Counted from the stretch's first letter, positions 38,903 through 62,682 are shown. The stretch: DNA of 64,000 nt from Spirochaetaceae bacterium (GCA_009780675.1 WQZP01000007.1:1-64000); one strand, 5' to 3'. The notes: generated from the letters alone by a model not told the origin. A program made the numbers and translations.

Positions 38903-38918
38903 GGATGATTGGTAAATT

Positions 38919-39968: not shown

Positions 39969-39982
39969 GAATAACGTGTCTA

Positions 39983-41692: not shown

Positions 41693-41700
41693 AACGCTTT

Positions 41701-42531
41701 ATGTCTACAGATTTGGAACAAAAGGCCCTTGACTTGCGGAAAAGGGTTATTTCAGTAAGTAAAATGTCAGGAGCGGGTCATATCGCATCGTCTCTTTCGT
41801 CAATAGATATTTTGAACGCCCTATATAACGGCGGCATACTTCGTATTGACTGCAAGCAACCAGAATGGAGAGAAAGAGATCGCTTTATTCTCAGCAAGGG
41901 ACATGCCACGTTGGCCCTGTATAATGTTTTGGTCGATGCAGGTTTCGTATCACAAAAGGATGTCGATAGATATTGTCAGAAAGGAAGTATATTCGGTGGA
42001 CACACCACTTCATCCGTTCCCGGTGTTGAGTGCAACACTGGCTCTTTGGGTCACGGCCTCTCTTTTGCCATCGGCTCAGCACTGTGCGCTAGACTTGAAA
42101 AAGCCGACTATCTTACTATCGCCCTTTCCGGTGATGGCGAGTGCCAGGAGGGGAGTATGTGGGAAGCTGCAATGTTCATCACTCACTATAATTTAATCAA
42201 TTTGGTCTGGATAATCGACAAGAACAATATACAGCTTTGCGGACGCATCAATGCGGTGATGAATCTGGATCCACTTGATGAAAAGCTTAAGGCTTTTGGT
42301 TTTGATGTCAAGGTCATAGATGGTCATAACTATGATGAGTTGATGTCCACTATAAAAATAGACAGAAACAATCTTCCTGCCAAACCGATAGCAATTATCG
42401 CTAACACAATAAAAGGCAAAGGCGTCCCGTTAATGGAAGATGTACCAGAATGGCACGGGAGGAAGCCCAACGCCGATGATTACGCAATCATATACGAGCA
42501 ACTGAGAATGCCGAAGGATGCAGGAAAATGA
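41701..42531 (+). CDS. Transketolase, N-terminal (ThDP-binding) subunit
   Basis: The 276-residue protein covers only the first transketolase domain: RDRFILSKGHATLALYNVL (active-site His), GSLGHGLSFAIGSAL, and the ThDP motif GDGECQEGSMWEA...NN. A GTG at 41689 is an alternative start that overlaps the ThDP gene. It must pair with the C-terminal subunit encoded next to form a working enzyme. Split transketolases occur in special sugar pathways, and here a glycolaldehyde (C2) transfer to a keto-sugar is possible. Overlaps the next gene by 4 nt. Confidence 0.9.
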   Translation: MSTDLEQKALDLRKRVISVSKMSGAGHIASSLSSIDILNALYNGGILRIDCKQPEWRERDRFILSKGHATLALYNVLVDAGFVSQKDVDRYCQKGSIFGGHTTSSVPGVECNTGSLGHGLSFAIGSALCARLEKADYLTIALSGDGECQEGSMWEAAMFITHYNLINLVWIIDKNNIQLCGRINAVMNLDPLDEKLKAFGFDVKVIDGHNYDELMSTIKIDRNNLPAKPIAIIANTIKGKGVPLMEDVPEWHGRKPNADDYAIIYEQLRMPKDAGK

Positions 42532-43466
42532 AAAAGGATTTTGAAGCCTCTCTTTATGAGCAAATGAAAATCAATAAAAAAATCGTCCTTTTTTTGGCTG
42601 ACAGCGTCTTTGATTTGTATGAAGAATTCGAAAGAGAATTTCCGGGTCGCTTTTTCAATTTCGGCATCGCCGAGTCGAACATGGTCGCAGCAGCCGGCGG
42701 ACTGGCAAAGGCATCTGGAAAAGGCGACGGCGAACTCATACCGGTCGTATATACTATGACCCCGTTTCTGATCTACAGAGCCTACGAGTTCATCAGAAAT
42801 GACATCTGTATGCAAAAGTTGAATGTTAAACTCGTAGGCGTATGCTCCGGCGTCAAGAATAATAACCTCGGGCCTACCCATCACGCAACCGAAGACATCG
42901 CCGTCATGCGAGTATTACCTGATTTGACAATACTTTCGCCGGTCAGTCCAAAAGAGGTGTCGACTGCTTTTCTAAAAAGTCTCGAACACAACGGGCCTGT
43001 CTACATCAGATTGGGAAAGGCGTTCGAAACGGAAATTTATGATGACGCGCCTCAATTTGAAATAGGCAAAAGCACGCTGATTCAATCCGGGAATGACATC
43101 ACCATAATATCCACAGGCAACATCATAACCTGTGCGTTGGAAGCTGCGGCACGTCTGAGAAACGAAGGGATCACGGCAGACGTGATAAATATGTCCACAA
43201 TCAAGCCGATTGATGCTGAGGGAATAATCCGCTCGGCACGAAAAACAGGACGTGTGGTTTCGGTCGAAGAACATCAAATCATAGGCGGGCTTGGTTCGGC
43301 GGTAAGCGAGGTTCTGTGCGAGAACAATATCCACACGTCGTTCGAAAGAATAGGTTTCAAGGATACTTTTTGCACAGAATATGGCTGGCACAAGGATTTG
43401 TTGGAGTTTTATGGAATGTCGCCAGACAGTATTTTTAATGTTTGCAAAAATATTCTGAACAAATAG
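42528..43466 (+). CDS. Transketolase, C-terminal subunit
   Basis: The 312-residue protein has the pyrimidine-binding domain with catalytic Glu in FNFGIAESNMVAAAGGLAK, GPTHHATEDIAVMRVLP, and the C-terminal domain (GGLGSAVSEVLCE). It complements the N-terminal subunit at 41701; the two together equal a full transketolase, and both have intact active-site residues. The pair overlaps by ATGA. The sequence is clearly richer in G+C than genes left of 36 kb. Confidence 0.9.
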   Translation: MKKDFEASLYEQMKINKKIVLFLADSVFDLYEEFEREFPGRFFNFGIAESNMVAAAGGLAKASGKGDGELIPVVYTMTPFLIYRAYEFIRNDICMQKLNVKLVGVCSGVKNNNLGPTHHATEDIAVMRVLPDLTILSPVSPKEVSTAFLKSLEHNGPVYIRLGKAFETEIYDDAPQFEIGKSTLIQSGNDITIISTGNIITCALEAAARLRNEGITADVINMSTIKPIDAEGIIRSARKTGRVVSVEEHQIIGGLGSAVSEVLCENNIHTSFERIGFKDTFCTEYGWHKDLLEFYGMSPDSIFNVCKNILNK

Positions 43467-43478
43467 AAGAGGGTTTTT

Positions 43479-44504
43479 ATGTTGAAAGAAAAAACTTTTT
43501 TAGTGACAGGGGCGACAGGGCTTATTGGCAGCAATATCATAAACAAGTTGCTGGGTATGAAAAACGCACACATCATCGCCCTAAGTCGCAGCGAAACAAA
43601 GCAGAAAGAGATGTTCAGCAAGCATATCAACAACGGTTCATTGGAGTGTGTCGCAAAAGATATCGGTACTGATTTTGATTTGCCATCTATCACCAGAAAT
43701 TCTCCTGTTGACGTTATTTTCCATGCTGCCAGCCCGATATCTGGCAAGATAATCACCGAATGCCCGGTGGATGTCATCAAGCCGAATCTTCTTGCCACGA
43801 CCTCTCTTTTAGACGGACTTGTCGACCAAAAGCACAAAACCGGGATCAATGGTCGGCTGATAATATTTTCTTCCGCAACGGTATATGGGGTAAACTCGCA
43901 GAGCGATATCACAGTGAGTGAGCCCGATACACAATGCTCTGATGGTTTAAATAGTGGGAACGCACCTTACGCCGAATCCAAGCGTATGACCGAAGTTATA
44001 GCACGGGCCTATGTAAAACAATATAATGTTGATGCGGTAATTGCTCGCCTCGGATGGGTCTACGGTGCGACCCTCTATCCCCCGGAAACCGCCATGTTTG
44101 AGTTCATAAACAACGCACTTCGCTGCGAAGACATCCGTTTTAAATCATCTGGGATGCCGAGACGTGATAACATTCATGTCGATGATGCGGTTTCTGGACT
44201 CTTTACTCTCATGGAAAATGGAGAGGCGGGAGATGCTTACAACATATCATCTGGAGGAGCTTTAGGTAATTTTGCAGCCATAGATGAAATTGCGGAAATC
44301 ATCGCCAAAGTCTCATGCGAAGAGCTGTCCAACAAAATTAAAGTAATCTACGAGAGCCAGCCGGCCCAATCCAGAAAGCCCGGAATCATAATGGGTAACA
44401 GCAAACTGGGGGCACTTGGGTGGAAACCAACCGTAGGGCTCTACGAAGGACTAAAAAACACGGTGTTGGGGCAGAAAGAGTATAATACATGTCGCGCGCA
44501 ATGA
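43479..44504 (+). CDS. NAD-dependent epimerase/dehydratase-like reductase
   Basis: The 341-residue short-chain enzyme has TGATGLIGSNIINKLLGM, HAASPISGK, IIFSSATVYG and the catalytic YAESKRMTE. It is of the type that reduces or epimerises nucleotide-sugars (for example CDP-sugar 4-ketoreductases such as YerF). It could reduce the keto group left after the carbon-chain addition by the thiamine enzymes, which is inference. A GAGGG motif precedes the ATG. The last 16 nt overlap the GtrA-like gene. Confidence 0.86.
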   Translation: MLKEKTFLVTGATGLIGSNIINKLLGMKNAHIIALSRSETKQKEMFSKHINNGSLECVAKDIGTDFDLPSITRNSPVDVIFHAASPISGKIITECPVDVIKPNLLATTSLLDGLVDQKHKTGINGRLIIFSSATVYGVNSQSDITVSEPDTQCSDGLNSGNAPYAESKRMTEVIARAYVKQYNVDAVIARLGWVYGATLYPPETAMFEFINNALRCEDIRFKSSGMPRRDNIHVDDAVSGLFTLMENGEAGDAYNISSGGALGNFAAIDEIAEIIAKVSCEELSNKIKVIYESQPAQSRKPGIIMGNSKLGALGWKPTVGLYEGLKNTVLGQKEYNTCRAQ

Positions 44505-45923: not shown

Positions 45924-45974
45924 ATGGACTCGGTTAGATTTTGTAAAATTTTAAAAGGATATGAATATATCTAA
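45924..45974 (+). pseudogene. Relic of a GtrII-type gene start after gtrB
   Basis: An ATG at 45924 with GGAGA upstream reads MDSVRFCKILKGYEYI and stops at 45974. The first ten residues match the start of the GtrII-type protein at 33894 (MVSVRFCKIL) at nine positions, and the DNA is nearly the same over the TTTTGTAAAATTTTA part. The next gene starts inside it in another frame. It marks where a gtrA-gtrB-gtrII operon was cut. Confidence 0.72.
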
Positions 45975-48069
45975 ACAATCATCCTTATGCACTATATTTT
46001 TAGACTCAGGCAACGGCTTCAATAAAGACGAATATTTATTACTTTCGATAAGTAAATATGGAAATCAGTTTAGGGTAAGTATAAATATTACTCCTAATAT
46101 AAAAGGTATACGCTTTGATCCTTATGAAGGGTATGGCTGCATTATAACTGATTTTCAGGTATTAATAGATGGCAATTCAGCCTGTTATTCATATACCAAT
46201 AGCAATGAAATAAATAGCGTATTATTTTTCGATAACCTTGATCCGCAGATAGCTATTGATTTTAACAGCAAAGTTATTAGTACAGTGATATTATCAGGGG
46301 AAATTTATAGAATTAATCCTGCCAATCTTTCAATTCTTTTAAAATACAGGAGAAAAATTGAAAAGACAACCTGGATTAGAAAATTATTGAAAATATTCAA
46401 ACTACATATTATTTGTTTGCAAGTTCTTATCTTTTTTAAGAATTTTGGTAAACATTTTGATAAAACAGGATGTGTTATATATATTGATACCGGAAACAAT
46501 TTTAACGAAAAAGAAACCACATCTGTTTTGCTTAATAAAATTGGAAGCCGTTTTTGTGCAATAATTCAACCAACTTCAAATGCCAAGCGCATACGTTTTG
46601 ATCCTTATGAAGGGTATGGTTGTATAATAACTAATTTGCAAATATTTATAGATGGTAATCCCGCCCATTATTCATATACTAATAGCAATGAAATAGATAA
46701 CGTATTATTTTTTGATGACCTTGACCCACAAGTAGCCATTGATTTTAATCAAAGAGTTATTTCTACAATTGTAATATCTGGAAATATTTTCCAATTATAT
46801 CCTCATGTTATTTCAACTCTATCAAGATTTAAAAGAATATATGAAAAGTATATAGCAAAAAAAAGATATATTAGAAAAATATTTAAAATACTTAACTTAT
46901 ATATTGCTTGTTATAGGATTATTGTTTTTCTTTTTAAAAAAGGACGAGCCAGAGATTCAAAGCGAATTTATTCTTTTAAAGATGTGTGTAGTGATAAAAG
47001 TGTTTTATATCACAAGAAATTAAAATTGTCATATACACAGCCGCAATTTGATAATGATGTATCAAAATCAATAATATATGAAGATAAATTATACGCCCAA
47101 TATGCGGTTAAATTAGAAAGCGCAATGTTTTTTGGGTGTTCCAGTCTTATTATATGGAAAAATAAAGTGGTGTATGATTTGCCATTTTATGATATGGACC
47201 GTAGATATAATTATACAGATCCTCAAATAATAAAAGTTAAAGGAAGTAAAATTACTTTTTGGAAAAATCAAAAGGCTAGAATAGATAGGGCAATATGGAT
47301 GGGGGGCTGCGCTTCATATAATTACTATCATCTTATGTATGAATATGTTATTAAATTCTTGAAATTACAAACCTTAAATATTTCTACAGAAATACCTGTT
47401 TTTGTAGACCAAATATGTCTTGATGTGCCACAATACAGAGAGTTACTTGAACTAGTGAATAAAAAAAAATATCCTTTATTGCCTGCCCATCCAGATTATT
47501 GTTATATAACAAAAGAATTGTACTATATTAATTGCCCTAATTATATTCCAGTAAATTTTATCGATGATAACGATATTAAAGCCGAGGATTTTCAATTTGA
47601 TGTATCACTATTAATGGAATTAAGAAATTATTTACTATCATATTCATCAAAAAATGTTTTTCCGGAAAAAATATTTATTTCCAGAAAAAATGCAAATAAA
47701 ATCAGAAATTATAATGAAGACGAAGTAAAAGAGATATTTTTAAATGATGGATTTGAAATCGTATATCCTGAAACATTATCTATTAAAGATCAAATAGCAA
47801 TGTTTCATCAAGTAAAATATATTGCTGGTGGTTCTGGAGCTGCTTTTACAAATATCTTATTTTGTAATGATCATTGTAAGTGTTTAGTATTTGCAAAATC
47901 TACAGTACCGCTTTCAATATTTTCTACAATAGCACATATTGCAGGCGTTGATTTAAAATACATTACAGAGGAAGCAACAAGAGGTAAAAATAAGATAGAT
48001 AGTATACATGAATCATTTGAAATAGATGTTAATTATTTAAAAAAATATTTATCCTCATGGTGTAATTAA
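45961..48069 (+). CDS. GT61-like glycosyltransferase with two copies of an unnamed N-terminal domain
   Basis: The 702-residue protein has two repeats (about 10-118 and 171-281), each carrying DTG/DSG..FN, RFDPYEGYGCIIT, YSYTNSNEI and FFD.LDPQ.AIDFN. Between and after them are basic helical spacers. The C-terminal half (about 380-700) has FISRKNANKIRNYNE, YPETLSIKDQIAMF and GGSGAAFTN, typical of DUF563/GT61 glycosyltransferases of capsule loci. A third copy of the domain is in the protein at 58574. The domain is probably a beta-sandwich, but no name is known to me. Confidence 0.82.
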   Translation: MNISKQSSLCTIFLDSGNGFNKDEYLLLSISKYGNQFRVSINITPNIKGIRFDPYEGYGCIITDFQVLIDGNSACYSYTNSNEINSVLFFDNLDPQIAIDFNSKVISTVILSGEIYRINPANLSILLKYRRKIEKTTWIRKLLKIFKLHIICLQVLIFFKNFGKHFDKTGCVIYIDTGNNFNEKETTSVLLNKIGSRFCAIIQPTSNAKRIRFDPYEGYGCIITNLQIFIDGNPAHYSYTNSNEIDNVLFFDDLDPQVAIDFNQRVISTIVISGNIFQLYPHVISTLSRFKRIYEKYIAKKRYIRKIFKILNLYIACYRIIVFLFKKGRARDSKRIYSFKDVCSDKSVLYHKKLKLSYTQPQFDNDVSKSIIYEDKLYAQYAVKLESAMFFGCSSLIIWKNKVVYDLPFYDMDRRYNYTDPQIIKVKGSKITFWKNQKARIDRAIWMGGCASYNYYHLMYEYVIKFLKLQTLNISTEIPVFVDQICLDVPQYRELLELVNKKKYPLLPAHPDYCYITKELYYINCPNYIPVNFIDDNDIKAEDFQFDVSLLMELRNYLLSYSSKNVFPEKIFISRKNANKIRNYNEDEVKEIFLNDGFEIVYPETLSIKDQIAMFHQVKYIAGGSGAAFTNILFCNDHCKCLVFAKSTVPLSIFSTIAHIAGVDLKYITEEATRGKNKIDSIHESFEIDVNYLKKYLSSWCN

Positions 48070-48071
48070 TA

Positions 48072-50060
48072 ATGAATATAACTTTTTGTGTTTGTATAGT
48101 GTTTTCTCGATTTGGTGAAAAAGCAGGCGATATATTGCAATCTGTTTTTGAGCAGAGTTATTCGGACTTGCGTTTATTTATTTTAGATAATGCCTGCCCG
48201 GGATTTGATTATGCGCACCTAGTTGAAATCATTCGGCAATATAGTACAGAAAAAAAAGTAGACATAAAAATACAAAAAAATAATCATCAGGAAAAAGCAG
48301 AAAAAGTATTTAAGCAATGTGTCGAAGTTGCAAAAGATTGCAATTTTACTATTTTATGTCCGAACGAAATATTTATTAGCCTTGATGCTATTTCTCAGGC
48401 TTGTACGAAATTACAAAAAGAATCATTTTTTTATATTTCTTCTGGCAACGAGACAATTCCTTTTTTTGCTAATATTACTGATATCTCTATTCAACTCGAT
48501 TCTACAATAATATCCATAAGGAGAGCATTGAATCTGGCTCGAGGCATCACACCTCTATTAACCGAAGCAAATTGGATAAAGCATGAAGAAGTATACTTAA
48601 ATTATAGCAGTTATCGGATGCTTGAAAAATTGGTTGCCAGCATACCAAGTTTATGGAAGCGTAAGGATTATTTTTATATTTTTGAACGAAATATTCGTAA
48701 TAAACTTATAAATGAATTTGCCTACCCAATAGGATTATGGGGTCTTTCGAAAAATGATTATACATTAATATTATATTTACAACAATTATTGGAAATAATT
48801 CAAGAAATGAATTTAAAAAACAGAAAGTCTTATATATTATTAAAAGAGAATTTGGGTATTTTTTTGAAACAACTGAAGACCTTTTCTGAAAGTAAAATAA
48901 AAATTGTTTTTTTTGCACAAGAGTATTCAGTTTGGCCATCGCTTCAATCTTTTTATGATGCATGTAAAAATGATGAACGTTTTATTGCACAGCTTGTATA
49001 TGTTCCTTTTAATCATCCAAATTCCAATGAAGATCCTTATATTGAAGGAGAAGCAATTCCAAATTCCAGAATGGAACCTTATTGGCAAAATGGATATCAA
49101 ATTATCCCTTGCACCATGTATGATCTATCCAAAGAATGTCCGGATATTGCAGTATTTGTGAAGCCTTATGATCTTGTTCCTCCGAATTTCAGTTTTCAAG
49201 CTATAAATAAAGTAATAAGACGTTGTATATATATCGGATATGGTTTTGAAATAGCAGCATGGAATAAAGATTATCATTTCAATCTTCCAATACATTTAGT
49301 ATCCTGGAAATTTATTCTTTATGGAGATACAATAAAAGAATTAGCAGAAAAATACAGCTATAATAATGGGAAAAATATAGTTGCATGGGGACACCCAAGA
49401 GCTGATTATTATATTGACTTGGAAAAAAAACGAGAACCCATTTCTCTTGAATGGAAAAACAAGATAAACAATCGAAAAGTAATTTTATGGAATACACAGC
49501 ATACAATCAAAGAAGGGATCGGAGCAGGAACTTTTTTAAAATGGAGGGAAGAAGTATTTTCATATTTTAATAACCATAATGACATTGTATTATTATGGCG
49601 GCCTCATCCATTTATGTTTAGTTCTTTGCGAAACAGCGATTCAATGACAGAAATTGAAGTAAACAATTTAGTTGAAACAATTGAAAATAGAGAAAATATA
49701 ATACTGGACCGCTCTCCAGATTATAGAAATTCTTTTTATGCATCCGATGCAATTATAACCGATGGAACTTCATTTCTAATTGAATATCTTTATACAGGAA
49801 AGCCCATTATATATACGCCAAAAGAAGGCAATGGAGACATCTACTTTCAGGATGAGATATTTGACAGTATGTATATAGCAAGAGATGAAGGTGATATCAT
49901 CCAGCTGCTGGATAATATTTGTCAGGGACTGGATCCGTTTAAGAAAAAAAGGATTTCATTTGCAAAAAGAATGTTGAAAGTAAATCCTGAAGGTAATGGC
50001 GAATATATAAAAAATCAGGTTTATTCGGATTTCACAAAGGAATGCAGCAATGGGATATAA
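48072..50060 (+). CDS. Fusion of GT-A-like domain and CDP-glycerol/ribitol transferase-like (TagB/TagF) domain
   Basis: The 662-residue protein starts like a family 2 transferase (NITFCVCIVFSRFGEKAGDIL) but has no clear DxD site, so that part may be degenerate. The second half (about 275-650) has IVFFAQEYSVWPS, YIGYGFEI, WGHPRADYY, VLLWRPHPFMF and ASDAIITDGTSFLIEYLYTGKPII, which match the glycerophosphotransferase family of teichoic-acid enzymes. It would use a CDP-alditol donor, in keeping with the TagD-like cytidylyltransferase that overlaps its end. Phosphodiester-linked glycan parts are therefore possible. Confidence 0.82.
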   Translation: MNITFCVCIVFSRFGEKAGDILQSVFEQSYSDLRLFILDNACPGFDYAHLVEIIRQYSTEKKVDIKIQKNNHQEKAEKVFKQCVEVAKDCNFTILCPNEIFISLDAISQACTKLQKESFFYISSGNETIPFFANITDISIQLDSTIISIRRALNLARGITPLLTEANWIKHEEVYLNYSSYRMLEKLVASIPSLWKRKDYFYIFERNIRNKLINEFAYPIGLWGLSKNDYTLILYLQQLLEIIQEMNLKNRKSYILLKENLGIFLKQLKTFSESKIKIVFFAQEYSVWPSLQSFYDACKNDERFIAQLVYVPFNHPNSNEDPYIEGEAIPNSRMEPYWQNGYQIIPCTMYDLSKECPDIAVFVKPYDLVPPNFSFQAINKVIRRCIYIGYGFEIAAWNKDYHFNLPIHLVSWKFILYGDTIKELAEKYSYNNGKNIVAWGHPRADYYIDLEKKREPISLEWKNKINNRKVILWNTQHTIKEGIGAGTFLKWREEVFSYFNNHNDIVLLWRPHPFMFSSLRNSDSMTEIEVNNLVETIENRENIILDRSPDYRNSFYASDAIITDGTSFLIEYLYTGKPIIYTPKEGNGDIYFQDEIFDSMYIARDEGDIIQLLDNICQGLDPFKKKRISFAKRMLKVNPEGNGEYIKNQVYSDFTKECSNGI

Positions 50061-50478
50061 AATCGGTTATACTTCTGGTGTATTTGATTTATTTCATATT
50101 GGTCATTTAAATTTATTACAAAGAGCAAAAGAACAATGTGAATATTTAATAGTTGGCGTCACTATAGATGATTTAGTTGCATATAAAAATAAAAAAGCTG
50201 TTATCCCTTTTGAAGAAAGGATCAAAATTATAAGCGCCATTAAGTATGTAGACATTGCAGTTCCACAAGAAAGTATTGACAAACTGGAGGCATGGAATAA
50301 ATATAAATTTAATGTTATTTTTGTAGGTGATGATTGGAAAGGTTCTGAAAGCTGGATTATTTATGAGAATGAACTTAAAAAAGTTAATGTTGATGTGGTT
50401 TATTTTCCATATACAAAAGGAACATCATCAACGTTAATTAATAATACTTTAATTTATTTACGAGATGGAAATACCTGA
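50050..50478 (+). CDS. TagD-like cytidylyltransferase
   Basis: The 142-residue protein has the nucleotidyltransferase motif HIGH (FDLFHIGHLNLL, His16-His19) and the C-terminal TKGTSST, the two key motifs of glycerol-3-phosphate cytidylyltransferases. It would activate an alditol- or amino-alcohol phosphate with CTP. It overlaps the transferase-like gene upstream and the ATP-pyrophosphatase gene downstream (1 nt), so the three may be translated together. Substrate is not fixed by sequence. Confidence 0.88.
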   Translation: MGYKIGYTSGVFDLFHIGHLNLLQRAKEQCEYLIVGVTIDDLVAYKNKKAVIPFEERIKIISAIKYVDIAVPQESIDKLEAWNKYKFNVIFVGDDWKGSESWIIYENELKKVNVDVVYFPYTKGTSSTLINNTLIYLRDGNT

Positions 50479-51521
50479 TGGTTGATAAAATTTATGCAAT
50501 GAGCAGTTTTTTGCAATTTCGCACTGTATATGATCTAAGCATTAGATTCTCGGAAACAATTGAATTACCTCGCAGAGCAGATGTTTCATTTTCAGCGAAT
50601 CGAACTCCAATAAATACATCTGATGAATTATATGAATTCATTAAATCGTTTGTTGAACGGGAATCAGCCGGTGGCAAAACTGCTCTTGCTTTAAGTGGCG
50701 GAATCGACAGCGCCATATGCGCTGCGTTTATGCCGAAAGGTTCAGTTGCATATACGTTCAGATGCGTAGTTTCAGATAAAGAAGTTATAGACGAAACTAC
50801 GAAAGCTAGGCAATTTTGTGATATATACGGTTTAGAACAACGTATTGTAGAAATATTCTGGGAAGATTATGAACGATATTCCCCAATACTAATGAAAAGA
50901 AAGAAAGCACCTATTCATTCTATCGAAGTTCAAATATATAAAGCAGCGTTACAAGCAAAAAAAGATGGTTTCGAAAAAATAATTTTTGGCGAACCTGCGG
51001 ACTTGGTTTTTGGAGGCTTTGATCAACTTTTATCAAAAGAATACACATTTGGAGACTTTGTTGAAAGATACTCATGTGTTATGCCATATAAAGCTTTAAA
51101 AGAATTTGTAGTAATTACTGAACCTTTTAAAAAATGGGCTAATGATGGGTATATAAATGTACATGGTTTTTTGGATAATCATCTTTTTTGGGAAGATATC
51201 AACTCTTATACGAATGCGTGTGAAGCAGCAGATATAAAGTATTCTGGAGCATATATGGGTCTTGTACATTACCCGCTTGATATAAAACGAATACGGGAAG
51301 GTGAAAGCAAGTATCTGGTAAGAGAATTGTTCAAACGTTTATATCCTAAAGTAGAAATACCAAAGAAAATACCTATGCCACGCCCAATGGCAGAATGGCT
51401 TGAAAGCTGGAATGGGCCAAAACGATATGAGTTTTGGCCTTGCTGTCATATAAACATGACTGGGGATCAAAAATATTATATATGGATATTGGAAAAATTT
51501 ATTAATGAATTCAATATTTGA
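50478..51521 (+). CDS. Asparagine-synthase-like ATP pyrophosphatase without glutaminase domain
   Basis: The 347-residue protein has the PP-loop SGGIDSA (73-79) and the phrases IIFGEPADLVFGGFDQLL and IPKKIPMPRP, as in the C-terminal domain of asparagine synthase. The N-terminal glutaminase with its Cys is missing. Such proteins adenylate a carboxylate or other acceptor and then amidate or thiolate it. It overlaps the cytidylyltransferase by one base and lies 13 nt before a radical SAM gene. A role in building an unusual glycan group is inference. Confidence 0.82.
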   Translation: MVDKIYAMSSFLQFRTVYDLSIRFSETIELPRRADVSFSANRTPINTSDELYEFIKSFVERESAGGKTALALSGGIDSAICAAFMPKGSVAYTFRCVVSDKEVIDETTKARQFCDIYGLEQRIVEIFWEDYERYSPILMKRKKAPIHSIEVQIYKAALQAKKDGFEKIIFGEPADLVFGGFDQLLSKEYTFGDFVERYSCVMPYKALKEFVVITEPFKKWANDGYINVHGFLDNHLFWEDINSYTNACEAADIKYSGAYMGLVHYPLDIKRIREGESKYLVRELFKRLYPKVEIPKKIPMPRPMAEWLESWNGPKRYEFWPCCHINMTGDQKYYIWILEKFINEFNI

Positions 51522-51534
51522 ATAAGAAGAGCTT

Positions 51535-52761
51535 ATGAATATAAATAATGATAAGTTACTGAAAAATGTAAAAGTTTTACATGACCGAGCAGAAATTGGT
51601 TTAGAAGGTAAATATAAAGTGAATTTGAATGAAATTATCATGGTTATAACAAATAAATGTAATGGTATGTGTATCATGTGTCCCAATCTTATTTTAGATT
51701 CAGTTAACCAAACCTATCTAAACGCAAGCCCCTGGAGCCTTTCTTTTAAAGAATATAAAAAAAAGTATTTATCTAGCCCAAGAATGCTTCCGAGATTTTT
51801 ATGGCCAAACAAACAGTTTTATGAAAGTAATGTAACTATTCGATTTGATCAAGGAGAATCTTTTCTAAATAAGGATTTTCATAAGATATTAAAATATACA
51901 AAACGGACACTGCCTAATTCTACAACTGTTTTGCTTACAAGTGGTAGTATTTATCCAGAAAATTTTGAAATAGTTAAGAATTTGTCGATTTTATCATTTT
52001 CAATTGATGGATGTACTGCGGAAACATTTGAAAAAATTCGCACAACATTTAAGTTCGATAAAGTAGTCAATTTGATGAAAGCATTTATTGCAGCAAAAAG
52101 GAAGTATAAATCCGATACTATACTCAGGATGTCGGTATGTCTTTCTGGAATGAATGTTCACGAACTTGGAGGAATAATTCGTCTTGCAAAAGAAATAGGA
52201 GAATTCGAATCTGTTTATACTAACCCTCTAATGATAATGGAACATATGCCAGAAAAACAAAAAGAGTTTTTAAGACCTCATCAACTTGAAAATTTGGATT
52301 ATGATTATGTTCATAAACATATAGTAGAAGCATTTCAAGCTTCAGAAGAAACCGGAATTCGCTTGGATGCCCCAGATGAAGTACGTAAATACCTTAATCC
52401 TAAAACACCTTCGATTTTTAATGATAGTGTATCTGAAGATGCGTCACGATATGATACAAGTTTACATAAATATTGCACAAAACCCTGGCATGGTATTGTT
52501 AAATATGACGAAGAAGGTAAATTTTCTCGCTGGTGCGGTAATATTGCTCTTGAACCAAGTCTGGAAATTATAGAAAAATATAATATACCTAGAATAGGGA
52601 CACCCTGGGAAATTCTTAATAGTGAAGGATTTTTTCAATACAGAAAAGATTCTCTTGATGGAAAATTATTAAAATACTGTGAAGGCTGCCGTGTTGGTTC
52701 TTTTTGGGTCAATGAGTTAGCGCAAAATGATGTTGTTCCCGAAAGATGGGTTACATCATAA
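51535..52761 (+). CDS. Radical SAM protein with C-terminal SPASM-like cluster
   Basis: The 408-residue protein carries the CNGMCIMC cluster motif (Cys42, Cys46, Cys49), an iron-sulphur site that generates the 5'-deoxyadenosyl radical. The last 90 residues contain CTKPW, WCGN and CEGC with WEILNSEGFFQYRK between, the signature of a SPASM/Twitch auxiliary cluster. The function is unknown. It follows the asparagine-synthase-like gene and precedes two other radical SAM genes, so it may act with them. Confidence 0.87.
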   Translation: MNINNDKLLKNVKVLHDRAEIGLEGKYKVNLNEIIMVITNKCNGMCIMCPNLILDSVNQTYLNASPWSLSFKEYKKKYLSSPRMLPRFLWPNKQFYESNVTIRFDQGESFLNKDFHKILKYTKRTLPNSTTVLLTSGSIYPENFEIVKNLSILSFSIDGCTAETFEKIRTTFKFDKVVNLMKAFIAAKRKYKSDTILRMSVCLSGMNVHELGGIIRLAKEIGEFESVYTNPLMIMEHMPEKQKEFLRPHQLENLDYDYVHKHIVEAFQASEETGIRLDAPDEVRKYLNPKTPSIFNDSVSEDASRYDTSLHKYCTKPWHGIVKYDEEGKFSRWCGNIALEPSLEIIEKYNIPRIGTPWEILNSEGFFQYRKDSLDGKLLKYCEGCRVGSFWVNELAQNDVVPERWVTS

Positions 52762-52804
52762 ATATTATAAAATAATAAACCATAAAAGGAATAATTTTAA
52801 TAAT

Positions 52805-53935
52805 ATGGAAAAAGAATTTAGTAAATTTCCTGTTTGCCTTGAACCATGGATATTTTTAGGTCTTGGCTGGAATCAATTCAATATGTGTTGTAGGGGTGGA
52901 TATGGATATGATTTTGGTGAAATTATAAGTTATTCTAATAATAGTGATTTTCATAAAGATATATGGAATCATGAAAATTTTATAAAATTAAGGAATAACT
53001 TAATAAATGGTGAGTTACCATCAATATGTATTAATTGTTCACTAAAGAGGACATGGGGTATAAGAAACTATTTTTTTCGTTATTTACCTCTTATAAAAGA
53101 TGAAAATCAAAAAAACAGAGCTTTGGAGAATTATAATAGAACTATTGATTCTATTATAAATAAACAGACTTATATTGAAAGTAAGCCGATTTATTTACAT
53201 ATAATATGTGGTTCAAATTGTAACATAAAATGTAAGTTTTGTTATAACAGAAACATGAACTATAACCCAAATGCAAAAGATTTATTAAACATTATAGATA
53301 AATTTCATGAAACTTTAATATTCGTAACTTTATCTGGAGGAGAACCCCTTATTACACAAGCTGGACGATCTTTATTAAAAAAATTTGATGAAGGCATTTA
53401 TAAATTTGGTGTATGTCTACAAACAAATGGTCAATATTTTGATTTTGATCTTTTAAAATCAGTCAATTTGTTGTCAGTAGTAATCTCAACAGATGCAGCA
53501 ACAAAAAGGACTTATGAAAATGTTAGAATTGGAGCAAATTTTGAAAATTTAATAAAAAACATTAAATTATTTATTGACTTAAAAAAAAATGAAAAGCCTA
53601 CATTAGATATTTTATCAAATTATACAATAACATCTGATAATTATATAGAAATTCCTGAGGCAGTAAAATTATATCAAGATTTAGGTCTAAGTTTTGGATT
53701 TAATTTAGTTCAAAGAGATATAGATTGTCCGCAGAATATAATTGAAAGAAAAGATTTATATGATTCATTTTTATTTAAAATAAATGAAGGTATAGAAAAC
53801 GCTTATAATTTTAATACAAAAAACTCATTAAATACAATAAAAAACATTTTATTAAATAAAATAAATGATGAACAAGAACAGCAGAAATTTAAAGAAAAAA
53901 AACGTAAGTTTATCTTTTTCTGGAAAAATATTTAA
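52805..53935 (+). CDS. Radical SAM protein with an N-terminal auxiliary-cluster region (paralogue 1)
   Basis: The ATG at 52805 starts MEKEFSKFPVCLEPW; an earlier in-frame ATG overlaps the previous gene. The 376-residue protein has N-terminal Cys11, Cys28-Cys29, Cys75 and Cys78 with IWNHENFIKLRNNLINGE, which looks like an SPASM/Twitch cluster placed before the radical domain. The core CNIKCKFC motif follows (Cys139, Cys143, Cys146). The tail KEKKRKFIFFWKN is very basic. A close paralogue is next. Confidence 0.86.
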   Translation: MEKEFSKFPVCLEPWIFLGLGWNQFNMCCRGGYGYDFGEIISYSNNSDFHKDIWNHENFIKLRNNLINGELPSICINCSLKRTWGIRNYFFRYLPLIKDENQKNRALENYNRTIDSIINKQTYIESKPIYLHIICGSNCNIKCKFCYNRNMNYNPNAKDLLNIIDKFHETLIFVTLSGGEPLITQAGRSLLKKFDEGIYKFGVCLQTNGQYFDFDLLKSVNLLSVVISTDAATKRTYENVRIGANFENLIKNIKLFIDLKKNEKPTLDILSNYTITSDNYIEIPEAVKLYQDLGLSFGFNLVQRDIDCPQNIIERKDLYDSFLFKINEGIENAYNFNTKNSLNTIKNILLNKINDEQEQQKFKEKKRKFIFFWKNI

Positions 53936-53973
53936 ATACTTCAATAATTTATATTTAATAAGGATTACTATAG

Positions 53974-55131
53974 ATGAATACTTCACTCACCTCTCCAAAT
54001 ACGAATAAACAATTTTTTAATTTTCCTATATGCGTTTATCCATTTCTTTATTTAGGGCTTGGATGGAACAATTTTAGTTTTTGTCCAAATTGTTATAGCA
54101 TGGATTTTGGTAATATTAAAGAAACACCGCGCGATGTAAATATTAAAAATATATTCAATCATGAGAATTTTGTTGATGCAAGAAAAAAATATTTAAATGG
54201 TGAAATTCCGGATTATTGTAATAAATGTTTATTTTTTGGAACGCCGACATTTCCTTTATTGCAAACACATTTTACAAACTCATTAATACAAATTGAGGAT
54301 TTTAATCAAAAACAATCAGCATCTGAAAATTATATTTCAGCAATTTCTTCTATATTTAGAAATGAAATTATAGTTGACCATCTGCCAGTTATCTCAATAG
54401 TGGCATGCGGCTCTTCATGTAATCTGAAATGTAAATATTGTTACCAACGAAATTTAGATTATCATCCAGATCCATATGATATATTGAAAATATTAGATCA
54501 AATACATAGTACATTATTGAATTGTCATTTATCTGGAGGAGAGCCATTCGTTTGCAAAGCTGGAAGAGAAATTCTAAAAAGGTTTTCAGATGGAATTTAT
54601 AAATTTAATGTACGTATTGTTACAAATGCTCAATTCGTCGATTTCGACCTCTTAAAACATGTTAATCTTCAATCTGTCCATATATCAGCTGATGCTGCAT
54701 CAAGACATGTATATGAATCCATTCGTCAAGGTGGTAATTTTGACAATTTAATTAATAATATTAAAAAATTTATAGAACTAAAAAAAGAAAAACCTTATTT
54801 AAAATTAAATGCTAATTTTACAATTACTTCTGATAATTATCATGAAATACCAGATGCGCTCAAGCTTTATGAAGATTTAGTTGACTATGTTACATTTAAT
54901 CTAGTTATGGCGGAAGAAAATGATCCTCAGAATATAAAGGAACGTTCTGACTTATATGAACCATTATTAAAAAATATAGATATTGCAATAGCCAATACAA
55001 ATAATAATATTACAAAAGATAAGTTAAATGCTGCTAAGAGTACTATAATTAATAAAATTCAAGAGAAGCAACAAGAGCAACAAAAAATAAAAGAAAAAAA
55101 ACGCAAGCTTTTCTCTTTCTGGAAAAAATAA
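53974..55131 (+). CDS. Radical SAM protein with an N-terminal auxiliary-cluster region (paralogue 2)
   Basis: The 385-residue protein is a paralogue of the preceding gene: Cys20, Cys37, Cys40, Cys82 and Cys85 with FNHENFVDARKKYLNGE, then CNLKCKYC (Cys149, Cys153, Cys156), GGEPFVCKAG, and a basic tail KEKKRKLFSFWKK. The two genes are a tandem duplication with divergence, and may form a heterodimer or act on different parts of one substrate. Domain order differs from the SPASM protein at 51535. Confidence 0.86.
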   Translation: MNTSLTSPNTNKQFFNFPICVYPFLYLGLGWNNFSFCPNCYSMDFGNIKETPRDVNIKNIFNHENFVDARKKYLNGEIPDYCNKCLFFGTPTFPLLQTHFTNSLIQIEDFNQKQSASENYISAISSIFRNEIIVDHLPVISIVACGSSCNLKCKYCYQRNLDYHPDPYDILKILDQIHSTLLNCHLSGGEPFVCKAGREILKRFSDGIYKFNVRIVTNAQFVDFDLLKHVNLQSVHISADAASRHVYESIRQGGNFDNLINNIKKFIELKKEKPYLKLNANFTITSDNYHEIPDALKLYEDLVDYVTFNLVMAEENDPQNIKERSDLYEPLLKNIDIAIANTNNNITKDKLNAAKSTIINKIQEKQQEQQKIKEKKRKLFSFWKK

Positions 55132-55151: not shown

Positions 55152-55574
55152 ATGACAGAAAAGCTGAAAATACCATGTATAATTCAACTCCCAAAGATCG
55201 TTGACAAGCGCGGAAATCTTTCTTTCTTTGAAAATAACAATCACATTCCATTTTCTATAAGAAGAACTTTCTGGATATATGATGTTCCTGGCGGAGAAGC
55301 CCGCGGCGGGCACGCATATAAAGAGAGTGAAGAATTTATTGTAGCCTTATCTGGTAGTTTTGATATAATCCTTGATAATGGGTTTGAAAAAAAGGTGTTT
55401 AACATGAATCGTTCATATTATGGTTTATATATTCCAAAAATGTATTGGCGGGAAATTAACAACTTCTCTACCAATTCTCTTGCATTAATTGTCGCTAATA
55501 CAGAATATAGCGCTGATGATTATATCCGTGATTATAATGATTTTTGTATGTTAAAAAAGAACAATAATGGCTAA
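55152..55574 (+). CDS. dTDP-sugar 3,4-ketoisomerase-like cupin (FdtA/QdtA family), altered active site
   Basis: The 140-residue cupin matches FdtA/QdtA proteins ([43 protein letters not shown]). Family members have two histidines in the RGxHAHK strip; this copy has His54 but Tyr56 instead of the second. The neighbouring copy at 55567 has both. This copy may be inactive, a partner, or tuned to another isomerisation. Starts 21 nt after the radical SAM gene and overlaps the next copy by 8 nt. Confidence 0.85.
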   Translation: MTEKLKIPCIIQLPKIVDKRGNLSFFENNNHIPFSIRRTFWIYDVPGGEARGGHAYKESEEFIVALSGSFDIILDNGFEKKVFNMNRSYYGLYIPKMYWREINNFSTNSLALIVANTEYSADDYIRDYNDFCMLKKNNNG

Positions 55575-55983
55575 TACTTCTGTTAACGATTGCAAAATTA
55601 TTGAACTGCCTGTAAATCACCGTGATAAGGGAAATATCACGGTGATAGAAAATCAAAAGATTATTCCTTTTGATGTGCGCCGTATATATTATCTATATGA
55701 TGTTCCTGCAGGAGAAGCTAGAGGCGGGCACGCTCACAAAGAATTAAAACAACTTATAGTAGCAGCGCAAGGTAGTTTTGATGTTATTTTATCTGATGGA
55801 AAAAACACGCGCACAATTACTTTAAACCGTCCTTTTATAGGATTAACAATAGTTCCTGGTATTTGGCGGGAGCTTGATAATTTTTCTTCTGGCTCGGTTT
55901 GTCTTGTTTTGGCGTCAACAGAATATAATGAAAATGATTATATTCGTGAATATGAAGAATTTTTAAAATGGAAGGCGTTATGA
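55567..55983 (+). CDS. dTDP-4-keto-6-deoxyglucose 3,4-ketoisomerase (FdtA/QdtA family)
   Basis: The 138-residue cupin has [12 protein letters not shown] with both histidines (His55, His57), the putative catalytic pair. It turns dTDP-4-keto-6-deoxyglucose (from RfbB) into a 3-keto sugar, glucose- or galactose-type depending on FdtA or QdtA specificity. Sequence alone does not decide which. It follows its altered paralogue and ends inside the next gene's start. Confidence 0.87.
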
Positions 55984-56501
55984 TACACCCTCTTTCTGAT
56001 GTTAAGTCTCAAAAAATTGGCGAAAACACAAAAATATGGCAATTTTGTGTTGTATTAGATGGGGCAAGGATTGGAAATAATTGCAATATTTGCATGAATG
56101 TTTTAATAGAAAGTGATGTAGAAATAGGTAACAACGTTACTGTAAAGTCCGGTGTTCAATTATGGAATGGATTAAGAGTTGAAGATGATGTCTTTATTGG
56201 CCCAAATGTAACTTTTACAAATGATATTATACCACGTTCAAAACAATATCCAGATTCTTTTGTAGAAACAGTAATAAAGCGAGGGGCTTCTATAGGCGCT
56301 AATAGTGTTATAATAGCAGGCAACATAATAGGAGAATATGCGCTTCTTGGAGCGGGTAGTGTAGTTACAAAGAATGTTCCGCCGCATACAATATGGTATG
56401 GAAACCCTGCTAAGCAAAAAGGATATATAACGAAATCAGGTATTTTACTTGATAATTCTTTTTGTGATAAAACAGGCAAAAAACGGGATTTATCAGAATA
56501 A
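55980..56501 (+). CDS. Hexapeptide acetyltransferase (FdtC/QdtC-like)
   Basis: The ATG at 55980 is favoured because GGAAGG sits five bases ahead; an ATG 12 nt upstream is also in frame. The 173-residue protein has left-handed beta-helix repeats ([35 protein letters not shown]). The [12 protein letters not shown] end is typical of WxcM/FdtC-type dTDP-3-amino-sugar N-acetyltransferases. It would acetylate the 3-amino group made by the aminotransferase at 57449. Confidence 0.87.
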
Positions 56502-57434
56502 ATGACTAACCCTCTTGTTTCAGTAATTATTCCAGCTTACAATCATGAAAAATATATTTGTGAAACAATTTTTTCAATTATTAATCAAACATATAAAAAT
56601 ATTGAGCTTTTGATCGTTGACGATGGCTCAGGAGATTCTACTTATGATAAAATCTGTGATTTAGAAGTCTTATGCAGGAAAAGGTTTAAGTCCTTTTATT
56701 TCAATTCACAGAAAAACAAGGGCATAAGCGAAACTTTAAATACCCTTATTAATATGTCTGCGGGCGAATATATTTTTCTTATTGCATCTGACGATATTGC
56801 CGCTCCTCATGCGATAGAAACAGAGCTTTCCTTTCTTGAAAACAATCCTGATTATGCGCTTTGTGTTGGAAATAACGATAATATTGATGGAAACAGTCGT
56901 CGATTTTTTTGGGATGAAAATTTTAATGTTGTTTATGAAGCAGATAAAGCCTATTGCTTATCTTTTTCCGATCAATTGATTCAAAGATTTCCAAATATAG
57001 ATTTTTTTTCAGATGAATTCGGTTCATATTATAATTTAATACAATATGGAAATCATATTCCAAATGGTTATCTTATAAGGAAATCTATTTTCGAAAAAAC
57101 GAATCTATATGTCAAAGAAGCTCCATTGGAAGATTATTGGATAATGCTGCAGATTTCAAAATATGCAAAAATGAAATATTTATCAGACACACTTTTTTAC
57201 TATAGAAATCATGGAAAAAATACTATCTCCACTATTCCTGGCTATTATACATATAAAACACTGCTTTATGAATTTATAACAACATATTCTGGCGCCGAAA
57301 AGAATAAAAAATGCAATCAAGATCTTGAGCAATGGAAACAAGAGTTTGAACAATGTGGTAAAAATGCTGAAGTAAGTATGAAAGAATATGAAGCAAAAAT
57401 AAAAATATTAAAGAAAATGTTTCTTGCATATTAG
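56502..57434 (+). CDS. Family 2 glycosyltransferase
   Basis: The 310-residue protein has PLVSVIIPAYNHEKYICETI, VDDGSGDS and FLIASDDIAAPHAIE as its GT-A nucleotide and metal sites. It begins directly at the acetyltransferase stop and precedes the aminotransferase, so it may add the 3-acetamido sugar to the chain, as inference from context. The C-terminal 50 residues are a charged coiled-coil-like stretch. No membrane segment. Confidence 0.87.
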   Translation: MTNPLVSVIIPAYNHEKYICETIFSIINQTYKNIELLIVDDGSGDSTYDKICDLEVLCRKRFKSFYFNSQKNKGISETLNTLINMSAGEYIFLIASDDIAAPHAIETELSFLENNPDYALCVGNNDNIDGNSRRFFWDENFNVVYEADKAYCLSFSDQLIQRFPNIDFFSDEFGSYYNLIQYGNHIPNGYLIRKSIFEKTNLYVKEAPLEDYWIMLQISKYAKMKYLSDTLFYYRNHGKNTISTIPGYYTYKTLLYEFITTYSGAEKNKKCNQDLEQWKQEFEQCGKNAEVSMKEYEAKIKILKKMFLAY

Positions 57435-57448
57435 GAGTGTAAAGTAAG

Positions 57449-58558
57449 ATGAATATACCATTTTTATCAATAAAAGACATTACAAATAAACACAAGAGCG
57501 AATTAAGCAAAGCGTTAATCGATACACTTGATTCTGGATGGTATATTCTTGGTGATATGTTGAAATCATTTGAAAAAAATTACTCCGACTATATTGGCAC
57601 TGATTATTGTATTGGAGTTGCAAATGGTCTTGACGCGTTATCGCTCATTTTGCGCGCATATAAAGAGCTTGGTATCTTTCAGGAAAATGATGAGATTATA
57701 GTTCCAGCGAATACTTTTATCGCCTCCATATTGGCAATCACAGAAAACAATCTTGCTCCTGTTTTTGTTGAGCCAGATATTCGCACTTATCAGATTGATG
57801 ACCAAAATATCGAAAATGCCATAACAAAAAAGACGAAAGCTCTAATGCTCGTACATCTATATGGGCAATGCGCGTATACAGAGAAAATAAATCAAATATG
57901 TAAAAAATATAATTTGATTTTAATAGAAGATAACGCGCAAGCTCATGGGTGCTTGTTTAAAGGAAAATATAAAACAGGCTCTTTAGGCGATGCAGCAGGA
58001 CATAGCTTTTATCCCGGGAAAAATCTTGGCGCCATTGGAGACGGAGGCGCTGTGACTACAAATAATAAAGAACTCGCGCGAATTATCAGGACAATTGCAA
58101 ATTATGGATCCATTGAAAAATATGTATATGATTATCAAGGAAGAAACAGCAGGCTGGATGAACTACAGGCTGCTGTTCTTGATGTTAAATTACGCCATCT
58201 GGATAAAGATAATCAATCAAGAAGACAGGTCGCTAAAATGTATCTTAATGGAATAAAAAATACTTCAATTATTCTTCCTGAAGTATCTGACTGGGAGAGT
58301 AATGTTTTTCATGTTTTCCCGATACGTACATATCATAGGGCAAAATTACAGGACTATCTTGCTAATAAGAGCATACAGACTATAATCCACTATCCCATTC
58401 CGCCACATAAACAAAAATGTTACAAACAATGGAATTCTCTATCTTTTCCAATAACAGAAAAAATTCATGAAGAAATTTTAAGTCTTCCAATCAGCCAAGT
58501 GTTGAATGATGAATGTGTTCAATATATCATTGATGCTATTAATCAATATGAAGTATAA
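57449..58558 (+). CDS. PLP-dependent sugar aminotransferase (DegT/DnrJ/EryC1; FdtB/QdtB-like)
   Basis: The 369-residue enzyme has [33 protein letters not shown] and the Schiff-base lysine in [19 protein letters not shown] (Lys191). The last motif is typical of the 3-aminotransferases FdtB and QdtB, which act on dTDP-3-keto-6-deoxyhexose. With the ketoisomerase and acetyltransferase it makes dTDP-Fuc3NAc or dTDP-Qui3NAc. AGGAG precedes the ATG. Confidence 0.92.
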
Positions 58559-58573
58559 AATTGAGGTTTTATA

Positions 58574-59788
58574 ATGTCGGATAAACAAGACGATTTCCTG
58601 CCAAGCGCAAATATCAACACAAGAGATGGAAAAATACTTCATTATATTCGATCTAATTCTACTGTTCTTGAATTTGGTTCGTCTTATGGAAGAATGACAA
58701 AATATTTAAAGGAAGTTCTTGGTTGTAAAGTCTACATTGTAGAAATTGACCGTGAAGCTTATGAAAATTCTCTACAATATGCTGCTGCAGGAGTATGTGC
58801 AGATATCCTTGATTTTACATGGGCTAATGAATTCAAAGACATTTCTTTTGATCATATTATTTTAGCAAATGTATTGGAATATTTATTTGATCCTGAAAAA
58901 GTACTGGAAAAATCTTTATCGCTTCTTAAGGATGATGGTAGCGTATTGCTCTCTGCTTATAATATTGCCCACAGTGCGGTAATTATTAATCTTATTAATA
59001 ATAAATTCGAATATGAAAATCTAGGGGTTTTAAATAAAGAGCATATTAGATTTTTTACACATTCTTCTTTGTCAAAAATGCTTGACGTTAATTCTCTTGT
59101 TCCTGTTGTTGAAGATGCTGTTGTGATATTGCCGGAAAATACAGAATTTAAAAGCAATTATGGAAGTCTTAATGGCAATACAGAAATTCTTGAAGAAAAA
59201 GAATACGCGAATGTTTATCAATTTGTTTTTAAATGTGTGAAAAAAAGATGTTATCTGGAAAATAAGGATGTTTGTGTGATTCAGAAATTATACGAAAATA
59301 AAACATCGTCTTCATGTATAATATATTTTGATACTGGTTCTGATTTTAATCCTTATGAATTTACAACAAGGCCAGTGTATAAAAATAAAAAGCATCATTT
59401 TGAAGTAGATGTAACGCTATCTCCTGATGTTAAAAGAATACGATTTGATCCATTCGAAGGTTATGCTTGTATTATTGATAACCTGCAAATATTAACAGAT
59501 AAAGGCGTGATAGAATATGCATATACAAATGGTATGGCATCTGGTGGGGTTTTTCTTTTTGATACCATTGACCCTCAGATCATTATTGATTTTAATGGCA
59601 GAATTTTTCAGCAAGTAAAAATATCCTACAATGCATACAAATTCAACTTTGATGATATTCCTTTGTTATTTAAGATAAAGTCAAAAACAATAGATCTTGT
59701 CGCAGAAAAAGAGAATATGCAGGCATCTATATCTTGGCGTATTACCAAACCCTTAAGGATGATTGCCCGTTTTTTGCGTAAAAAATAA
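58574..59788 (+). CDS. Methyltransferase fused to the unnamed RFDP..G domain
   Basis: Residues 28-170 of this 404-residue protein are a class I methyltransferase (VLEFGSSYGRMTKYL, FDHIILANVLEYLFDPEKV). Residues of about 248-358 are a single copy of the domain seen twice in the protein at 45961 (YFDTGSDFN, RFDPFEGYACII, FDTIDPQIIIDFN). The C-terminus has SWRITKPLR, a tail frequently seen in O-antigen glycosyltransferases and methyltransferases. It likely methylates a chain end or sugar. The shared domain suggests a common ligand. Confidence 0.85.
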   Translation: MSDKQDDFLPSANINTRDGKILHYIRSNSTVLEFGSSYGRMTKYLKEVLGCKVYIVEIDREAYENSLQYAAAGVCADILDFTWANEFKDISFDHIILANVLEYLFDPEKVLEKSLSLLKDDGSVLLSAYNIAHSAVIINLINNKFEYENLGVLNKEHIRFFTHSSLSKMLDVNSLVPVVEDAVVILPENTEFKSNYGSLNGNTEILEEKEYANVYQFVFKCVKKRCYLENKDVCVIQKLYENKTSSSCIIYFDTGSDFNPYEFTTRPVYKNKKHHFEVDVTLSPDVKRIRFDPFEGYACIIDNLQILTDKGVIEYAYTNGMASGGVFLFDTIDPQIIIDFNGRIFQQVKISYNAYKFNFDDIPLLFKIKSKTIDLVAEKENMQASISWRITKPLRMIARFLRKK

Positions 59789-59937: not shown

Positions 59938-60714
59938 ATGAAGTTGCTTTTAAAACATCTAAAATATAAAGAACTGCTTTTTAATCTTATATCGAGAGAT
60001 TTAAAATTAAAATACCGCAGGAGTGTATTGGGATATTTATGGACAATCCTTAACCCTCTTTTGATCATGATAGTCATGACAATAGTTTTTTCACATATGT
60101 TTCGCTTTAGAATTCAACATTTTCCTGTATACCTTCTGACTGGCACCCTGCTGTTTGGTTTTATGCAGACCGCCACCATTAGGGCGCTTAATTCCATAAT
60201 AGATAATGCCTCGCTTATAAGAAAGACGTATGTCCCTAAATATATCTTTACCATGTCTGCGATAACAAGCGAATTGGTTAACTTGTTGTTTGCATTATTT
60301 GCATTGCTGTTTGTTATACTTGCAACAGGCGTTCCATTTACCTGGTATTTTTTGTTTATAGTTGTACCATTGATTCAATTATATGTATTCTGTTTGGGAG
60401 TTGGGCTGTTTCTTGCGCAGGTTGCGGTTTTTTTTCGCGATATTCAATATATCTGGACTGTTTTGTGCACAGCCTGGATGTATTTGACACCCATATTTTA
60501 CCCAGTTGAATTATTGCCAGATACTTTGCAGTGGATAGTTATGAGATTTAACCCATTATATATTTATATAACGGCATTTCGGGGATGCATTCTGCCTGGC
60601 ATTGCCTTGCAGCCGGAATATTTTTTATATGGCGCAGCGCTAGCCATTGTGGTTTTGCTTTTGGGAGCATTGACCTTTAATTTAAATAAAAATAAATTTA
60701 TTCTGCATATTTGA
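59938..60714 (+). CDS. wzm: Polysaccharide ABC-2 transporter permease
   Basis: The 258-residue protein has about six membrane segments and begins KELLFNLISRDLKLKYRRSVLGYLWTILNPLL, the diagnostic amphipathic N-terminus of Wzm/TagG/KpsM permeases. It forms the membrane channel for lipid-linked O-antigen or teichoic-type glycans. The stop overlaps an in-frame upstream region of wzt. The last step of chain export therefore uses this pathway. Confidence 0.95.
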   Translation: MKLLLKHLKYKELLFNLISRDLKLKYRRSVLGYLWTILNPLLIMIVMTIVFSHMFRFRIQHFPVYLLTGTLLFGFMQTATIRALNSIIDNASLIRKTYVPKYIFTMSAITSELVNLLFALFALLFVILATGVPFTWYFLFIVVPLIQLYVFCLGVGLFLAQVAVFFRDIQYIWTVLCTAWMYLTPIFYPVELLPDTLQWIVMRFNPLYIYITAFRGCILPGIALQPEYFLYGAALAIVVLLLGALTFNLNKNKFILHI

Positions 60715-60725
60715 AGGATCATATT

Positions 60726-62601: not shown

Positions 62602-62622
62602 GAATATGCGGATATTCTGCCA

Positions 62623-62670
62623 ACTGCAGAAGAAGTTTGCGATGCGTACGAGAAAGAGATATTGTCATAA
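62623..62670 (+). repeat. 48-bp direct repeat, displaced copy of the wzt 3' end
   Basis: This copy is nearly identical to 61419-61466 (47 of 48 positions), including the stop codon of Wzt. It is not part of a gene here and lies between the two MNT/HEPN pairs. Confidence 0.95.
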
Positions 62671-62682
62671 ATAGGATAATAC

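Follow-up and report, generated by a model that had tools for sequence, protein, structure and literature searches.

A conserved cytidylyltransferase and amide synthetase gene pair in a surface-glycan locus of a Spirochaetaceae bacterium

Introduction

What product is encoded by a run of genes in which relatives of TagF and TagD overlap a gene for an asparagine-synthetase-like protein and are followed by three radical SAM genes? This question is raised by positions 48072-55131 of a 64,000-nucleotide stretch of DNA from a Spirochaetaceae bacterium (GCA_009780675.1 WQZP01000007.1:1-64000). This stretch, referred to below as the window, holds a large locus for a surface glycan; a Wzm/Wzt-type ABC exporter, read from the sequence, closes it (59938-61466). 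The original prediction joined all six genes into one pathway for a phosphodiester-linked group that is aminated and altered by radical chemistry. Here, we describe how the six gene products compare with known enzymes, how often their genes recur together elsewhere, and which part of that pathway we retain.

Results

Six genes in one direction within a surface-glycan locus

A check of the sequence bore out the predicted layout of six intact genes on the same (+) strand, the first three overlapping. Gene 1 (48072-50060) encodes a divergent TagF-like (PF04464) phosphotransferase, gene 2 (50050-50478) a TagD-like cytidylyltransferase, and gene 3 (50478-51521) a PP-loop amide synthetase of the AsnB/beta-lactam-synthetase fold without a glutaminase, while genes 4 (51535-52761), 5 (52805-53935) and 6 (53974-55131) encode radical SAM proteins 1, 2 and 3. 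Genes 1 and 2 overlap by 11 nt and genes 2 and 3 by 1 nt, so that genes 1-3 are probably translationally coupled; gene 4 starts 13 nt past the end of gene 3. All Pfam matches lie above the curated cut-offs, namely Glyphos_transf (PF04464) in the C-terminal part of gene 1 (1.3e-11), CTP_transf_like in gene 2 (1.2e-18), Asn_synthase in gene 3 (4.3e-14) and Radical_SAM in genes 4-6 (1.1e-8 for gene 4 and 8.1e-13 for gene 5). Together with the motifs found (HIGH, TKGTSST, SGGIDS and three copies of CX3CX2C), they agree with the original description of a TagD-like protein with HIGH and TKGTSST, an asparagine-synthase-like PP-loop protein lacking a glutaminase, and three radical SAM proteins.

Elsewhere in the window (36365-44504), genes of a CDP-glucose pathway precede those for an HMGL-like aldolase, an acetolactate-synthase-like ThDP enzyme, a split transketolase and an SDR, and together they resemble a pathway to a branched, yersiniose-like sugar that has two ThDP systems. 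At 55152-58558, a tandem of two FdtA ketoisomerase genes, along with genes for a hexapeptide acyltransferase and a DegT aminotransferase, suggests the synthesis of an acylated 3-amino-3,6-dideoxyhexose. A domain of ~125 residues with the motifs IRFDPYEGYGCIIT, DGN, YTN and DPQIAIDFN is found in 45961-48069 and 58574-59788, twice ahead of a GT61 domain and once behind a methyltransferase, in copies that are 38-39% identical. Just past the exporter (61770-63373), two adjacent pairs of small genes resemble, by eye, MNT nucleotidyltransferase plus HEPN.

Genes 1-3 encode divergent members of known enzyme families

The product of gene 3 has 347 residues and matches the PP-loop domain (PF00733) from residue 63; Pfam detected no N-terminal Cys1 glutaminase domain of AsnB in it. 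The protein is modelled by AlphaFold with a pLDDT of 95.7, and among PDB folds the model comes closest to carbapenam synthetase, AsnB and beta-lactam synthetase; by sequence, AsnB (PDB 1ct9, E=3.3e-9) ranks first, before an NH3-dependent NAD synthetase. The motifs SGG-DS, GExxD...GG and KY-(L/I/V)-(I/V)-R are conserved together with an invariant K297, and GExxD-GG, which is GDG in some variants, aligns with GEGSDE-FGG of AsnB. A search of 97 further genomes surrounding that of the host gave no close relative, only weak partial matches of AsnB-type length in six, and the viral contigs and phages searched contained no relative. Six Lactiplantibacillus plantarum plasmids encode proteins with 50% identity to the window protein, which groups with full support with proteins from a betaproteobacterial locus (L013) and a Gracilibacteraceae locus (L014). 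Because this fully supported group spans three apparent lineages, the tree indicates that the PP-loop gene has moved by lateral transfer.

Against the glycerol-3-phosphate cytidylyltransferase equivalog TIGR01518, with a cut-off of 165.4 bits, gene 2 scores 98.5 bits and its L. plantarum homologue 82.8 bits; judged by this score, gene 2 is therefore not TagD proper. The nucleotide-binding motif HxGH is retained as HIGH, with H16 and H19 invariant. The RTEGISTT motif is absent, the window protein having YTKGTSST and its clade PYT[KRQN]xxSST, such that PYTKGxSST takes the place of the PRTEGISTT of TagD. The protein is 49-66% identical to the TagDs that are paired with PP-loop proteins elsewhere.

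Gene 1 had been described as a fusion of GT-A and TagF-like halves. The TagF-like C-terminal half stands, with a PF04464 match of 44.5 bits (gathering threshold 22.1) over profile positions 135-365 of 367, whereas Pfam recognised no domain in the N-terminal ~270 residues. AlphaFold confidence is very low for residues 1-272, and the quality of the full-length model is insufficient for assigning the N-terminal domain, leaving its GT-A identity only plausible. The first catalytic histidine, that of WHGTP (H444 in TagF, H479 in CgoT), is missing in the window protein, in which IYIGYG aligns with this motif, and is likewise missing throughout the Selenomonad TagF-like clade. The second (H609 in CgoT) is kept as the invariant H512 of RPHP, and an extra H502 is common to the window protein and the Selenomonad clade. 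The window protein belongs with those of Selenomonad TagF-TagD-PP-loop loci.

A TagD-like/PP-loop pair recurs across phyla

When 84,980 species genomes were scanned for the PP-loop protein, 48 loci emerged, in Bacillota, Bacteroidota, Synergistota, Saccharibacteria, one betaproteobacterium and one archaeal bin, and a TagD-like gene is present in 46 of them, mostly immediately upstream. The exceptions are L046, in which the contig starts inside the PP-loop gene, and L048, where the place of TagD is taken by a PEP-mutase/cytidylyltransferase fusion, accompanied by genes for an aspartate-aminotransferase-type enzyme and a formyltransferase. In a Paludibacteraceae locus (L056), PP-loop and TagD are fused in one 489-aa open frame, and the L. 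plantarum exopolysaccharide plasmids have the same TagF-TagD-PP-loop gene order within an exopolysaccharide operon. The TagD-like and PP-loop genes are a conserved two-gene unit that is common to gut bacteria of many phyla. Congruence between the PP-loop and TagD distances falls short of significance (Mantel r 0.13, 429/5000), so an exchange of partners is possible. The enzyme families are each known; what appears to be new is their constant pairing and the CDP-amide that it predicts. Literature searches, largely outside the subscription journals, returned nothing that describes the pair or its CDP-amide, nothing on glyceramide phosphate or on phosphonoalanine with PEP mutase that matches the pair, and nothing matching on radical SAM proteins with LicD or CDP-glycerol loci.

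Two loci stand out by their composition. At L048 (5906-11789), where the PP-loop relative lies by the PEP-mutase fusion and the aspartate-aminotransferase-type enzyme, no phosphonopyruvate decarboxylase was seen, and a phosphonoalanine-amide glycan decoration is possible. In a Quinella locus (L040:3073-5196), a head-to-tail fusion unites two PP-loop synthetases, each from a different subfamily.

Of 49 loci, 37 have a gene for LicD (28 loci) or a TagF-like protein (9 loci) no more than 6 kb away; the 12 genome loci without either include the closest relatives, L013 and L014, and several lie on short or truncated contigs. Among the same 49 loci, Stealth-type proteins are found in 5, a HisC-like PLP enzyme in 5 (between TagD and PP-loop in L050, L052, L053 and L057) and a distinct DUF362 subfamily in 8. 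The DUF362 protein, which comes next after PP-loop in these 8 loci, was rejected as a missing part of the system, the DUF362 proteins of the window genome all being distant and on another contig. Known capsule systems use LicD and PF04464 enzymes to transfer polyol phosphate from its CDP conjugates (PMC11666461), and glycerol-phosphate capsule synthesis by TagF-like and TagD proteins has been proven biochemically in Campylobacter jejuni HS:1 (PMC11924219) and Actinobacillus pleuropneumoniae (PMC11666461). Given these cases, relatives of TagD and TagF in diderms are unsurprising, which weakens the earlier view of them as normally Gram-positive.

The radical SAM genes and the pair have different distributions

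Radical SAM proteins 2 and 3 are paralogues (50% identical), and protein 1 is unrelated to both. Protein 1 has a twitch/SPASM-like C-terminal set of cysteines (Cys314/334/382/385), and protein 2 an N-terminal Cys cluster followed by CX3CX2C. The best NCBIfam model for protein 2 is NF033640 (twitch-domain radical SAM), against which proteins 2 and 3 score 86.6 and 87.7 bits, below the curated cut-off of 170 and with the radical SAM motif intact. For gene 5, the ATG at 52805 is favoured over a doubtful ATG at 52727 because the paralogue agrees and AAAGGAA lies ~15 nt upstream; genes 4 and 5 therefore probably do not overlap.

Relatives of proteins 2 and 3 are absent from 44 pair-carrying genomes, save one weak partial match, and relatives of protein 1 from 23, in a search that had no positive control of its own, though in the search of the relatives the same query detects the window's own genome. 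Homologues of protein 1 were not found in 59 relatives, nor close relatives of proteins 2 and 3 in the relatives' genomes or in 392 further genomes sampled from the phylum. Plasmids and phages contained no close relative of the radical SAM proteins: protein 3 had matches of only 20-29%, protein 1 had none in plasmids, and phage matches were weak (24-27%). An adjacent radical SAM gene of the glycan-locus type is found only in L013 and L052. The two proteins belong to another family, being 40% identical to each other and ~25% to those of the window, and the neighbour in L017 was judged by eye to be an unrelated rRNA-methyltransferase-like radical SAM protein. The L013 gene (8454-9563), directly upstream of TagD, encodes a degenerate TagD-like N-terminal domain (HLNPEH, not HxGH) ahead of the radical SAM part that resembles the protein at L052:10980-11957.

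Discussion

Of the original prediction, we retain a group that bears an amide and is attached to a surface glycan through a phosphodiester; this is the best reading of genes 1-3, a set also found together in other loci. With little better than even confidence, we propose that these genes (48072-51521) are a decoration module by which an amide-bearing, CDP-activated phospho-alcohol is placed on the glycan as a phosphodiester. The observed part of this explanation comprises the pairing, the one natural fusion, the fold, the conservation of motifs and the partner transferases. In our model, the TagD-like enzyme would join CTP to a small carboxylic acid that carries a phosphate, or to the corresponding amide, to give a CDP-linked product; the PP-loop enzyme would adenylate the carboxylate with ATP and then amidate it, using free ammonia or another amine because a glutaminase domain is absent; and the TagF-like protein, or LicD in most other hosts, would transfer the amide-bearing phospho-alcohol from CMP to a glycan sugar. 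The order of steps would be CDP-acid, CDP-amide and then transfer. The sufficiency of two genes in very different hosts, including small Saccharibacteria, suggests a substrate from central metabolism. Because most hosts carry the pair without dedicated supply genes, 3- or 2-phosphoglycerate (giving CDP-glyceramide) would be most economical, followed by phosphoserine (giving CDP-serinamide). Of three small Saccharibacteria genomes, all have PGK and two have GpsA-type genes, and full-length SerC was found in none, a pattern that does not single out one substrate. The acid may differ between clades and contain an amine, since variant loci insert the HisC-like aminotransferase (the four loci named above) or phosphonate genes (L048). 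Counting against a decoration module are the weak, non-significant congruence of PP-loop and TagD distances, the 12 loci without LicD or TagF and the absence of one of the two canonical catalytic histidines from the TagF-like protein of the window. More tentatively, and at somewhat less than an even chance, we suggest that cytidylyltransferase/AsnB-type pairs in several phyla make an undescribed class of CDP-amides, such as CDP-glyceramide or CDP-serinamide, for use by LicD/TagF-like enzymes on surface glycans.

Three other readings have to be weighed against this module. The PP-loop enzyme might be a ligase that couples the amine of phosphoethanolamine, serinol phosphate, phosphoserine or another phospho-amine with a carboxylic acid, yielding an N-acylated CDP-amino-alcohol that is then transferred. 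Its lack of a glutaminase domain is consistent with such a role, as are its structural neighbours carbapenam and beta-lactam synthetase, which use an internal amine in place of ammonia, and the HisC-like enzyme inserted in the four variant loci; however, a gene for making a phospho-amine is absent from most loci and the best sequence matches are AsnB and then the NH3-dependent NAD synthetase, and we regard a ligase as rather unlikely. A plain glycerol-phosphate system is unlikely. Here TagD would supply CDP-glycerol to the TagF-like transferase, and amidation by the PP-loop protein would fall on a uronic acid of that glycan that has no relation to the glycerol phosphate. TagD-like proteins of the same broad family do stand beside LicD or TagF without a PP-loop gene, capsules built from CDP-glycerol have been proven for Gram-negative bacteria (PMC11924219), and synteny alone cannot assign the molecule on which the PP-loop protein acts. 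Yet the fusion and the near-constant pairing across phyla, amid differing glycan genes, point to a shared substrate, and the TagD clade lies below the equivalog cut-off with PYTKGxSST rather than PRTEGISTT.

The single six-gene pathway of the original prediction, in which the radical SAM enzymes alter the phosphodiester-linked group, we consider very improbable. The six genes are co-directional and tightly spaced, and a radical SAM gene also lies alongside in L052 and in the closest relative, L013, whose protein has the degenerate TagD-like part; but those two genes are of another family, and the distributions described above separate the radical SAM proteins of the window from the pair. In the neighbourhood co-occurrence check named with the original prediction, the TagD/PP-loop pair nearly always occurs without these genes, an outcome that counts against a joint pathway, and we reject it on that ground. 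The radical SAM proteins are probably separate, laterally acquired glycan- or sugar-tailoring proteins whose genes share the cluster by chance.

With the radical SAM genes of this surface-glycan locus set apart from the TagD-like/PP-loop unit, what remains is a small, widely shared combination of a cytidylyltransferase and an amide synthetase, which predicts a new activated building block for the glycans of bacteria from gut, rumen and food. Since L. plantarum is a food organism that is easy to work with, its plasmid-borne copy of the unit opens this chemistry to direct testing.

Each element of the proposed module has counterparts in known systems. PYTKGxSST of the TagD-like clade resembles PYTPGISST of Fom1, a PEP mutase with a cytidylyltransferase domain (PDB 5x3d); a PEP mutase gene, by contrast, was not found in the part of the window examined, and the clade scores higher against TagD (87.6 bits) than against 5x3d (62.3 bits). 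The PP-loop protein has the synthetase fold and the SGG-DS, GExxD-GG and K-R motifs in common with AsnB, beta-lactam and carbapenam synthetases, and it differs from AsnB-type synthetases in lacking the N-terminal glutaminase, in ~50 unique N-terminal residues and in its cytidylyltransferase partner. The amines of the C. jejuni HS:2 capsule are products of HisC-like PLP enzymes, as are encoded in the variant loci. The HS:2 capsule is amidated with ethanolamine or serinol (PMC12409886, PMC12096443) and is thus amide-decorated as proposed here; its amide is on glucuronic acid of the chain, whereas we place it on a CDP-activated phospho-alcohol. Finally, in C. jejuni HS1.09/HS1.11 (PMC11924219) and A. 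pleuropneumoniae CpsA/C/D (PMC11666461), a TagD-family enzyme likewise feeds a PF04464/LicD phosphotransferase in a surface-glycan locus. The system described here departs from both in a TagF-like protein without the HGTP histidine, a TagD relative outside the equivalog and a PP-loop synthetase as constant partner.
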